Both the position numbers and the translations under genes were made by a program. A DNA stretch of 25,410 nt, from IMG/VR virus record IMGVR_UViG_3300022074_000342, positions 1 to 25,410 of that record; one strand, given 5' to 3'. The notes below the pieces were generated by a model. It had not been told where the DNA came from. It searched no databases and was given only the letters and a program-made list of their open reading frames with translations. Below are positions 4,600-22,730 of this stretch, piece by piece; the stretch's first letter is position 1, and each line of letters begins with the position of its first letter. Origin of the DNA: a virus.

Positions 4600-5000
4600 T
4601 GGCTGTACATCACTACAACTTGAAAGTCGTAATGTGCCGTGAGCGCGGCGACGAAAAAGCGGTTGGAAGCAAAACCTATTCTGAACCCACCCGCACCCCA
4701 TGGGTCTTTACTTTTGAATCCACTGACGTTACTGCCGCAGCCGCCGAAGCGGAATTCCTTGCCGCAATGGAAGCAGGTATTGCCAGCGCTCCGCAGCACA
4801 TCAAGCTAATTAAAAAATCTGGCGACGGCTCCCTCAAAGCCGCCCTAGACTCTTCAGCAACTGTCACGAACGACGAAGTCGCAGCGAGTGGGCCATATTC
4901 AGAACGAGTGGGCAAGGACGTTTTCCGCTATGAAATTGGTGTATCTACAACGTCAGCAGCAGACGCCCTTTCCAAGCGCACCGCTCACAACCTCTCCTAA
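4599..5000 (+). CDS. Hypothetical protein between portal and head-protease genes
   Basis: I do not recognise this 133-residue protein. The N-terminal 45 residues look like a small beta-rich unit (YNLKVVMCRERGDEK, TPWVFTFES). An alanine-rich helix follows (AAAAEAEFLAAMEAGIA), then a Ser/Thr/Ala-rich C-terminal half with no obvious fold. There is no signal peptide, membrane segment or catalytic motif. It is locked between the portal and the next gene by one-base TAATG overlaps at both ends, so it is made with the head proteins. It could be a minor head component or an accessory of the downstream module protein; this is context only. Confidence 0.75.
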   Translation: MAVHHYNLKVVMCRERGDEKAVGSKTYSEPTRTPWVFTFESTDVTAAAAEAEFLAAMEAGIASAPQHIKLIKKSGDGSLKAALDSSATVTNDEVAASGPYSERVGKDVFRYEIGVSTTSAADALSKRTAHNLS

Positions 5001-5785
5001 TGGCTGAAACCTACGGAGGATACCCAGACTCTGCAAAGGCAGCCGCCAGGCGCGCCTTGCGTCACCGTGACAAAAACGGGACGAAGTGTGGCACACCCGT
5101 AGGTTGGGAGCGCGCGAATCAGATTGCCTCTGGGGAGAAGCTTTCCCTGAAGACCATCAAGCGCACCTTCTCGTTTCTATCCCGGGCTGAGACATACAAC
5201 CAAACCAAATTCAAGAACGAGAAAGGGCAGGAGATTTGCGGCAGCATCATGTACGCCGCATGGGGCGGGACATCTATGCGAAGCTGGGCAAGCGGCATCA
5301 TCAATAAGGTGGAGGGCAGAAAGCAGTTGGGCACCGTAGATGGAGAACCCGTTTTCGACACCCCAGCGGCAGCAGAAGCATATGCCAAGGAGATTGGTTG
5401 CAGCGGGCACCATGAGCACGAGCTAGAAGGCAAGACGGTGTACATGGCTTGCACCAGTCATTCCGACGCAACCAACGATGAGCGGGCTGAGATCAGCGGG
5501 GCAATCAAAAAAGGATTGCAGAAGAAGGCCGACGATCACAACGCAAAGGTCACCGTGCCGCACAAAAAGACAAGTGTACGCACGCTGTCGGCAGTTTTCC
5601 GTCGAGGAGTAGGCGCATACAAAACGAACCCTGGCAGCGTTCGACCAACAGTAAAATCACCAGAGCAGTGGGCATATGCACGGGTGAACAGTTTTATTTA
5701 TGCCCTTAAGAATGAGAAATTTAGAAGCGGCAAGCACGACACGGACTTGTTCCCGAAAGGCCATCCGCTGAGCTCAAAAGACTAA
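5000..5785 (+). CDS. Three-module phage protein of unknown function (head gene cluster)
   Basis: A 261-residue protein with three parts. Module 1 (about 8-105) contains AKAAARRALRHRDK, VGWERANQIASGEKLS and YAAWGGTSMRSWAS; a similar uncharacterised domain is common beside phage portal and protease genes (from memory). Module 2 (about 113-157) has FDTPAAAEAYAKEIGC, then GHHEHELEGKTVYMAC; C134, H137, H138, H140, C151 and H154 could bind a metal (inference). Module 3 (about 190-261) carries FRRGVGAYKTNPGSVRP, QWAYARVNSFIYALKNE and LFPKGHPLSSK, a motif set recurring in phages and large viruses without known function. It lies two bases before the protease-capsid gene, suggesting a head-assembly role. 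Confidence 0.8.
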   Translation: MAETYGGYPDSAKAAARRALRHRDKNGTKCGTPVGWERANQIASGEKLSLKTIKRTFSFLSRAETYNQTKFKNEKGQEICGSIMYAAWGGTSMRSWASGIINKVEGRKQLGTVDGEPVFDTPAAAEAYAKEIGCSGHHEHELEGKTVYMACTSHSDATNDERAEISGAIKKGLQKKADDHNAKVTVPHKKTSVRTLSAVFRRGVGAYKTNPGSVRPTVKSPEQWAYARVNSFIYALKNEKFRSGKHDTDLFPKGHPLSSKD

Positions 5786-5787
5786 TC

Positions 5788-7617
5788 ATGGCTAACAACG
5801 TAGAAAAGCGATTTCTGACGAACGGCTTTGAGGTCCGTGCCGAAGAAGGCAAGCCCACTGTTGTGGAGGGCTATGCTGCTGTCTTTAATGATGAGACGGT
5901 GATCGGTGGATCCTTTGCTGAACGAATTGATCGCAATGCATTCAAAGGAGCTGACATGACCAACACGGTGGCTCTCTTCAACCATGACGTCAACAAACCT
6001 CTCGCTCGTGCTGGTCACGGCCTTGAGCTGTCTGTAGACGATCGTGGATTGAAGTACCGCTTTGAAGTTGGTAATCAAAGCTACGCAAAAGACCTGGTGG
6101 AAAACATCCGCCTCGGCAACGTCTCTACGAGCAGCTTCGGCTTCACCGTCCGCGACGATGAGTGGGAGATGCGAGATGAGATGAACTTACGCACCATCAA
6201 GGAAGTAGGACTACTCTTTGATGTGTCACCAACAACGCAAGGAGCGTACCCCACAACCGAAGTGGGCCTGCGCTCTATGGAGCTCGCCTTGGAAAACGAG
6301 GGAGTGCTTGCTGCTGAAGAAGAGGTAGCACGCATGTACCACGACAAGGACGAGGAGGAGGAAGAAGAGGACGAAGATCGCGACGAAGACGAGGACGAAG
6401 AGGAGGAGAAGGAGAACAAGTCCAAGCGATCTGAGGAAAAGGATGAGGAAGATTGCGGATGTGGTGACAACGAAATTAAGCCCGTACAACGCGAGGCTGA
6501 TCAAGAACTCGAAACGGCGGACGCCCCCGTCGCCGAAGAGAGCGATTCAATTATTCAACGGGGCGCAGAATCTGAAATCTCTATGAACGAAGAGAAAAAC
6601 GCACCAGCAGTGGTGCAAGGATTGGGCGACGCAGTCCAAAACGTCCGCGCCCGTTTTGATTTGGGCAAGGCCATCCGCGAAGCGGCTAGCGGTGGTCTCA
6701 CAGGACTCGAGGCCGAAATGAGCCAGGAAGGAAGCAGCGAGTTCCGTCAAGGTGGTGTAGCACCCGGTACAGGCATCAACATCCCGTCGATGCTCTTGCG
6801 TGCTGACGCAGTGCCTATGGCAACCGAAGCTGTGAACACCGTACAAGCTGCTGGTGGCGCTATCGCTACTGAGGTGCAAGGTCCAGTGGGTCGCTACCGT
6901 CCCGTGACCTTTGCTGACAAGATGGGTGTTCGTCGCATCACTGGTGTGACTGGAGACATCTCTATTCCTGTCCAGGGTAACAGCATCACAGTGTCTGAAA
7001 CAACCAATGAGACCACGGCTCAGGACTCAGCAAACATGACGTTCTCGTCCGTGACATTGTCACCAGACCGTATCTCGTCTCACACCAAGGCTTCGCAGAT
7101 GTTGCTCGCTCAGAACAGCTTCGACTTGCAAGCTTTCTTGGCTGACGATATGCGCCGTGGATTGGAGAATCAGTACAACGTCAAGCTGAAGGATGTCATC
7201 GAGGGTATCACTGAGCTTGACGCAAGCGACACCAGCCTTGCGAAGGAACACTACGCATACAAGCTCGAGGAGCTCTTGCGCGAAGGTGATGTTGATCCCG
7301 CTGGAGCATTCTTCTTGACTGAGCCCACGCTTTACCGCGAAATGCGTCAAGCTACCCTCGACGCTGGTTCAGGTGTGTTTGCCGCTACTTCTGCTAGCCG
7401 CATCGGAGAGTACGAAGCAATCGTTTCTACCCTCTTCACAAACGGCAACGCCTACATGGTGAAGCCAGAAGATTTGGTGGTCGCAGAGTGGGGTGGATTG
7501 AACATCCAGGTCGATCCTTACACCGAGGCGCACAAGGACGTGGTCCGGATCATTGCCAACATGTACGTGGACTGCAAGATCTTGCGTGCCGCAGGCGTGA
7601 AGGGTATTACGGAGTAA
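5788..7617 (+). CDS. Prohead protease-major capsid protein fusion (HK97 fold)
   Basis: One 609-residue reading frame joins two head proteins. Residues 1-170 are an HK97/U35-type prohead protease with VEGYAAVFN, catalytic-type His66 in ALFNHDVNKPLA, Ser116 in VSTSSFGF, and FDVSPTTQGAYPTTEVG. Residues 171-322 include an extremely acidic stretch (about 186-222), a CGCG motif and a region that could serve as scaffold. Residues 323-609 are an HK97-fold capsid: TGINIPSMLLRADAV, GRYRPVTFADKMGVRR, TFSSVTLSPDRISSHTKAS, FDLQAFLADDMRRGLENQYN and the C-terminal VVAEWGGLNIQVDPYTEAHKD. In most relatives protease and capsid are separate genes. An in-frame ATG at 6583 (Met266) could start a capsid-only product, though it has no clear ribosome site. 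Confidence 0.93.
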   Translation: MANNVEKRFLTNGFEVRAEEGKPTVVEGYAAVFNDETVIGGSFAERIDRNAFKGADMTNTVALFNHDVNKPLARAGHGLELSVDDRGLKYRFEVGNQSYAKDLVENIRLGNVSTSSFGFTVRDDEWEMRDEMNLRTIKEVGLLFDVSPTTQGAYPTTEVGLRSMELALENEGVLAAEEEVARMYHDKDEEEEEEDEDRDEDEDEEEEKENKSKRSEEKDEEDCGCGDNEIKPVQREADQELETADAPVAEESDSIIQRGAESEISMNEEKNAPAVVQGLGDAVQNVRARFDLGKAIREAASGGLTGLEAEMSQEGSSEFRQGGVAPGTGINIPSMLLRADAVPMATEAVNTVQAAGGAIATEVQGPVGRYRPVTFADKMGVRRITGVTGDISIPVQGNSITVSETTNETTAQDSANMTFSSVTLSPDRISSHTKASQMLLAQNSFDLQAFLADDMRRGLENQYNVKLKDVIEGITELDASDTSLAKEHYAYKLEELLREGDVDPAGAFFLTEPTLYREMRQATLDAGSGVFAATSASRIGEYEAIVSTLFTNGNAYMVKPEDLVVAEWGGLNIQVDPYTEAHKDVVRIIANMYVDCKILRAAGVKGITE

Positions 7618-21257: not shown

Positions 21258-22730
21258 TTATATCAACCGCACCACTTGAGCCAGCTTGGCAAGATTCATG
21301 TCTTTCACATAGAAGTAGTATGCGTGCTTACCGCCGTGCCTGCCCTGCTCTTCCAGGTTCAGCGCCCGGAGTCTCGCCTTGAATCTTCGAATCGACCATG
21401 CGTTATACCCGCTGTTGGCGCAATAACACTTAAAGGACTCATGCGCACGGTCTTGATGCACCTCTACAGAGTTTTGAATCTCTGGATCTGCGGAGAGCCC
21501 GCTTGCCACCATCCACGACATGAAAGGGTCACCTTCAATCCGAAGACGTTCAATCTCTTTTTCTACAACACCCGGTCTTTCAAGCTTCCCGTTACCCCGC
21601 TTGACCTCTTCCAACAGGCAAGTGCCCAGGCTAATTCCAATACCAGCTTTCGCCTTGTCGGTAGCCAGCTTTTCATGAAGGGCAATGTCTCGCTTTCTCC
21701 AGTCCTTCGCCTTCTTAAAGCTTATGATGTCAAACCTTCGGGCCACGCCTGGGTCACTTAAGACGTAGCTCAGGCCCATCTCATTGGAAGCGACAACCAA
21801 GCACGCGCGAGGAGTTATCTCTAGCGGTTCACTGTAAAGTTTGCGCGCAATGATGGGCTCCTTGCTGACTATCATCTTCAGCGCATCCTTGTCGCCAATG
21901 TTCTCACTGGCATCTGCGCTTACACACAACGTGGCGTGCGCAAGCCGCATACGGTGGCGGCTGTCATCCCTTGTAATCTGAGCTAGGTTGTCTGTACGCA
22001 TAACGTTCTGTGATCCAATACAACCGACTATTGCTTCAATCAAAGTAGACTTACCTGCGCCAGCAGCACCAATGAGAAGCATGATCTTCTGTGCGTTCAT
22101 TGGGTCACCAGCTATCGCATTCCCAAACATGCCTAAGAGATACTGCCGTGTGTCTACACAGGGAACTGATTCGTCCAGGAACTTCTGCCAAGTCTTGTCT
22201 TCAGAACGAAGCTTCCATTTTGCAGGTATGCAGTAAGTCGTTAAGTCTTCAGGGCGATGGCCGCTAATGAAGCACTCCTTTCCATTGCGGACTGTCAACA
22301 CCCCGTCTTGATAATTGATGCCACGTATCGGACGGGCTCCGTGTCCGAATACGCTCGAGGGCTTGCCGTGCGCAGAGAAGCTCTTGTCAAACTCCCTTGC
22401 GAAGTCTGACGTAAGGATGCTCGGCTTGAGCAACCTGGCACCTGTGGCAAACGCCTTGATGACACTTGACATTTGAGCATCAGTTAGTGGTTCGTAATGC
22501 GTACCTGTCCACACACTACGCAAACCCCCCAACTCCAACAACGGGCTCCCACACAACTTGCTAAGCTGTGGTATGGCGATCCCAAGCATAGCGGCAGCGG
22601 ACTTGGCCGCGCACTTTTCGGGATCGTAAGGCACATCGACTACTTCAATGACCTTGTCTGGGGTGACCATATGCTTTGCCAGCTTACATAGCTGGTCTAC
22701 ACATTCATCAGTCGTCCCCCTTGTTCCCAT
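21258..22730 (-). CDS. D5/P4-type SF3 replicative helicase
   Basis: A 490-residue helicase of the phage/plasmid primase (P4, D5) group. A D5_N-like region (about 138-215) holds YQDGVLTVRNGKECFISGHRPED and YLLGMFGNAIAG. Superfamily 3 motifs follow: Walker A GAAGAGKST (221-229), the B region TLCVSADASE (267-276), B' LKMIVSKEPIIARKLYSEPL (284-303), motif C LVVASNEM (311-318) and Arg finger VARRF (329-333). A C-terminal winged-helix-like domain has YNAWSIRRFKARLRALNL. No primase motif is seen in the first 130 residues, so a primase must come from elsewhere. The ATG at 22730 overlaps the upstream gene by 23 bases; Met21 (22670) is an alternative start. Confidence 0.9.
   Translation of the reverse strand: MGTRGTTDECVDQLCKLAKHMVTPDKVIEVVDVPYDPEKCAAKSAAAMLGIAIPQLSKLCGSPLLELGGLRSVWTGTHYEPLTDAQMSSVIKAFATGARLLKPSILTSDFAREFDKSFSAHGKPSSVFGHGARPIRGINYQDGVLTVRNGKECFISGHRPEDLTTYCIPAKWKLRSEDKTWQKFLDESVPCVDTRQYLLGMFGNAIAGDPMNAQKIMLLIGAAGAGKSTLIEAIVGCIGSQNVMRTDNLAQITRDDSRHRMRLAHATLCVSADASENIGDKDALKMIVSKEPIIARKLYSEPLEITPRACLVVASNEMGLSYVLSDPGVARRFDIISFKKAKDWRKRDIALHEKLATDKAKAGIGISLGTCLLEEVKRGNGKLERPGVVEKEIERLRIEGDPFMSWMVASGLSADPEIQNSVEVHQDRAHESFKCYCANSGYNAWSIRRFKARLRALNLEEQGRHGGKHAYYFYVKDMNLAKLAQVVRLI

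Follow-up and report, generated by a model that had tools for sequence, protein, structure and literature searches.

The window analyzed here is the whole 25,410-nucleotide stretch (positions 1-25,410) of IMG/VR virus record IMGVR_UViG_3300022074_000342, which comes from a marine phage. It carries on its plus strand a reading frame for a 609-residue protein in which a prohead protease is joined through an acidic linker to a major capsid protein (Table 1); coordinates, frame, length and the absence of an internal stop are exactly as given in an earlier sequence-only reading of this DNA. Residues 14-165 match Pfam Peptidase_S78 (PF04586; E = 2.7e-37, 128.9 bits, cut-off 21), and residues 25-160 match NCBIfam proheadase_HK97 (TIGR01543; 86.9 bits, cut-off 59). 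The conserved catalytic His and Ser are present: alignment A1 is invariant at H66, S115 and S116, among them the H66 and S116 that the sequence-only reading had picked out. The N-terminal part is a predicted S78/HK97-family prohead protease. Toward the other end of the same stop-free frame, residues 381-607 match Pfam Phage_capsid (PF05065; E = 9.7e-14, 51.9 bits, cut-off 24.2), and NCBIfam major_cap_HK97 (TIGR01554) scores 35.3 bits (cut-off 27.5). The matches bear out the proposal that a complete protease runs into a complete capsid protein. No second copy of the fused gene was found in the 25,410-base record, which may be a fragment, so that a separate gene might lie outside it.

An AlphaFold2 model of the 609-residue fusion, built on an 85-row alignment, has a mean pLDDT of 81; an earlier model from 8 rows only was poor (pLDDT 40). 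Protease and capsid are modeled confidently, with pLDDT mostly >90 across protease residues ~20-160, and the low-confidence parts are residues ~199-279 and 341-358. Foldseek searches with the model returned HK97-fold capsids, the best being R4C (8gta, E = 1.8e-14), followed by D3 and HK97 (1ohg matched at E = 7.6e-12). Structure prediction, proposed earlier as a check, hence gives an HK97-fold capsid, and by both the curated models and the predicted fold the C-terminal domain of the window protein is an HK97-fold major capsid protein.

Table 1. Features of the fused protease-capsid gene in the window
Feature	Coordinates	Strand	Basis or remark
Protease-acidic linker-capsid fusion ORF	5788..7617	+	609 aa; frame without internal stop
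S78/HK97-family prohead protease domain, residues ~14-165 (predicted)	5827..6282	+	Pfam, alignment A1, model
Polyacidic stretch, residues ~176-222	6313..6453	+	Predicted helix passing into low-confidence region
CGCG motif, residues 223-226	6454..6465	+	Found in part of clade only
Presumed translation-initiation element, 20 codons before internal ATG	6523..6582	+	Silent-site conservation
Presumed nested capsid precursor, M266-E609, 344 aa	6583..7617	+	Conserved Met; start-like upstream GC
Compact helical pre-capsid region, residues ~280-335	6625..6792	+	Conserved LTGLEAEMSQE
Predicted cleavage zone, residues ~341-356	6808..6855	+	Low pLDDT at 341-358; R4C chain start; GGAIATE at 356
Mature HK97-fold capsid domain, residues ~361-609	6868..7614	+	Pfam, model, Foldseek

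Scans of IMG/VR found the fused layout in 44 non-identical sequences, 13 of which have a coiled-coil region and 31 of which, the window included, form an acid clade. The suggested search for further fusions with the same linker was productive. In a tree of capsid domains, the 29 acid-clade rows fall into a single branch (99% SH-aLRT), and every member of that branch is fused. In split relatives, the protease gene precedes a capsid gene whose N-terminal ~80 residues form a delta-like coiled coil; the tree requires at least three changes between the fused and split states. The gene directly 5′ of the protease is also fused in frame in L033 (3671-5875) and in L050 and L051, giving a three-part polypeptide; its counterpart in the window, at 5000-5785, matches DUF5824. 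Elsewhere in the window, 21258-22730 on the minus strand matches DUF5906 and a VapE-like P-loop and probably encodes a replication protein.

The acid clade lacks the coiled coil and has an acidic stretch at its position, and it keeps the compact helical region that follows. In the window, acidic density is highest at residues 177-206, where 22 of 30 residues are D or E; the maximum per 30 residues in the 14 other window genes never exceeds 10. The acidic linker of the sequence-only reading is real and conserved in the clade, and a polyacidic stretch at the site of the relatives' coiled-coil, delta-like domain looks new. A role as a built-in scaffold is plausible for it because of this position. 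The CGCG motif that had also been pointed out is present, although it is not conserved across the clade, CGC-type motifs recurring in only about one-third of members; we rejected it as a key motif. Variants of the form CGC(G/E/D) lie at varying positions of the acidic linker in L027, L030, L031, L034, L035, and others. In L050 and L051, the protease-capsid linker is just 46 residues long and nonacidic, and an acidic run lies ahead of the protease, at residues ~114-143 of the fused ORF.

Fusion of protease and capsid is itself already known. Fused protease-capsid genes have been described in Arthrobacter AM/AU and AN phages and in Rhodococcus phage RRH1 (Klyczek et al. 2017, PMC5513430), and such fusions have been termed common in small-genome siphoviruses (PMC9671004); the parts of the Arthrobacter and RRH1 papers available to us describe no nested start. 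These phages resemble the window in that protease and major capsid functions share one gene, and since RRH1 Orf7 has no Pfam match, sequence kinship with the window fusion is remote. Corndog (cluster O) was rejected as a fused case, its protease and capsid genes being separate. Fused proteins of the window's general type are covered by PHROG_617 (R4C, RcRhea, Jilinvirus, Murka, PPpW-3, and Mano). Like the window protein, they are fused precursors with an internal boundary Met; unlike it, those inspected have no polyacidic linker, and in the capsid tree they branch apart from it. S78 and capsid domains were detected in most of those tested; the protease part of RcRhea gave no Pfam detection, and that of S-CBS1 fell under the cut-off. 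The PPpW-3 protein carries the annotation capsid and peptidase U35, and 54 phage records cover 80% or more of the RcRhea fused protein in their matches. A protease-capsid fusion is thus ordinary, and what is unusual is the clade-specific acidic linker together with the conserved internal start.

The fate of one such precursor can be read from R4C, whose capsid gene encodes 629 residues and whose virion is a T=7 shell with 415 capsid copies. The solved chain comprises precursor residues 362-629, the last 268 residues, although it may omit disordered N-terminal residues (PMC10276861); the fusion is not discussed in the available parts of that paper. In at least one relative, the fused precursor therefore ends as a short capsid chain, allowing for such residues. 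Because the start of the R4C chain aligns near window residue 356, cleavage in the window protein probably occurs at residues ~341-356, and the zone expected earlier (266-325) is probably too far upstream. Extrapolating from R4C, the compact pre-capsid region is probably part of the propeptide.

M266, encoded by the ATG at 6583, lies at the junction of the variable linker with the conserved capsid precursor. With boundary Mets chosen by family motif in the IMG/VR set and by eye in annotated phages, a Met occupies the capsid boundary in 44 of 44 fused homologues and in all 19 annotated fused phages inspected; elsewhere, Met makes up 1.7% of linker residues. Silent sites are constrained at the same place. 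In the 20-codon block before ATG 6583, 154 of 164 codons are identical (0.62 gene-wide), and across residues 253-266 in the window clade all 91 of 91 are identical (0.616 overall), which is the silent-site maximum of the gene. Silent-site conservation is strongest just upstream of the boundary Met in four of six sequence sets: peaks like that of the window clade occur in the L030, L040, and L053/L055 sets, the L038/L048/L005 set has no peak (random-column p = 0.35), and the L059/L086 set, with two sequences, is too small for the test. Random-column tests of the 20-codon block gave p < 5e-5 in three acid subclades and p = 0.0002 in one coiled-coil lineage, values that are optimistic because the pairwise comparisons are nonindependent and ancestry is shared. 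The signal is not general, since a silent-site scan of Jilinvirus-like phages gave no peak at the boundary Met.

Base composition before the internal Met also resembles that of a start. GC content of the 20 nt upstream is 0.31 at internal Mets and 0.31 at fusion starts, compared with 0.54 for the 490 other Mets in frame (p = 3e-17). Synonymous AT bias upstream of the boundary Met has the same sign in 32 of 32 representatives (mean z = -2.04); the bias in this phage's own gene is modest (z = -1.37, within the lowest 10% of windows). No Shine–Dalgarno sequence is visible before ATG 6583 in the window itself. Matches of 4 nt or more within range occur in 15 of the 19 annotated fused phages (for example, TAAGGAG in CRP-811, GGAGG in R4C, and GAGGTG in VP882) and also at about one-quarter of other in-frame ATGs. 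On this comparative evidence, ATG 6583 is probably a real start, and no part of the earlier interpretation is better supported than its suggestion of extra capsid from this ATG. The feature is apparently new, as searches of open-licence PMC papers found no description of a nested start in protease-capsid fusions.

Two well-studied systems frame the interpretation. In HK97, protease gp4 and capsid protein gp5, the latter with a 102-residue delta domain, are encoded by two separate genes. The predicted capsid fold of the window protein matches HK97 prohead and head structures and its protease fits the HK97-family model, whereas the window has one ORF and lacks a coiled-coil delta region. In lambda, the protease and scaffold genes C and Nu3 are nested. 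An in-frame internal start in the window would likewise yield a shorter C-terminal product and set the protease dose; the difference is that here the major capsid protein itself would be nested.

We favor, with fair though far from full confidence, a model in which one gene gives two co-terminal products. The long product, of 609 residues, would contain protease, acidic stretch, and capsid precursor; the short one, of ~344 residues, would begin at the internal ATG and be a capsid precursor that includes a ~90-residue propeptide. Joining assembly through its capsid domain, the long form would thereby bring both its protease and its acidic stretch inside the prohead, and there the two might also serve as an internal scaffold. 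After assembly, the protease would cut within the predicted zone and leave the mature capsid domain, the short form losing ~90 residues, near the size of the HK97 delta domain. The nested start probably limits the dose of protease. That every capsid subunit brings its own protease, as the sequence-only reading had it, is doubtful: the comparative evidence favors initiation at 6583, and many subunits may therefore lack one.

Alternatively, every capsid subunit could be made as the 609-residue fusion, with the proteases inside the head and cut out together and the boundary Met a relic left over from a once-separate capsid gene. The single stop-free ORF across the clade is consistent with this arrangement, and the authors of the Murka study regard its gene as a single propeptide of capsid protein, protease, and scaffold (PMC10892653). 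Space would suffice as well: residues 1-355 in 415 copies need ~19,600 nm3, and a head assumed to be T=7 with an inner radius of 19-23 nm would offer 29,000-51,000 nm3. Against a relic, however, stand the retention of the Met in every homologue and a silent-site peak at that exact spot, both unexpected for a leftover, and we consider exclusive use of the fusion unlikely.

The conserved nucleotides before 6583 might instead serve a purpose other than translation initiation, as an internal promoter, in RNA processing or RNA structure, or in a frameshift that frees the protease. An inverted repeat, GAGCC-n-GGCTC, which codes for EPEAR-like residues and has a loop of variable length, precedes the internal Met in many relatives (L030, L033-L037, and L040-L049), and in L005 and L040 the stretches upstream of this Met have more stable folds than shuffled sequences (z = -3.57 and -2.10). 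The window subclade, however, lacks the repeat, the stretch upstream of ATG 6583 shows no folding advantage over shuffles (z = 0.69), and the overlap of the conserved block with a retained ATG and a start-like composition would stay unexplained. We judge such a purpose improbable. A hairpin before the internal ATG was rejected as a general element, given that the window stretch folds like shuffles, and so was a frameshift yielding protease alone, the out-of-frame stops after the acidic run following from AT-rich Asn codons. An error of sequencing or assembly as the source of the fused frame, conceivable for a metagenomic contig, is exceedingly improbable because many contigs carry the same stop-free layout, in all 31 non-identical sequences that group in one well-supported clade.

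The two-product model can be extended, tentatively and with slightly less than an even chance of holding, to protease-capsid fusion phages in general. In these phages, a conserved internal start may direct synthesis of a nested capsid precursor, giving a system of two products that resembles retroviral Gag and Gag-Pol in its dosage logic, and in the marine clade the polyacidic stretch and fused protease may replace part of the delta-domain scaffold. If the hidden second start is real, many phage capsid genes would be incompletely annotated, and heads with hundreds of proteases would cease to be a puzzle. The acid-linker clade, for its part, would represent a natural swap of a coiled-coil delta region for an acidic, probably disordered segment.
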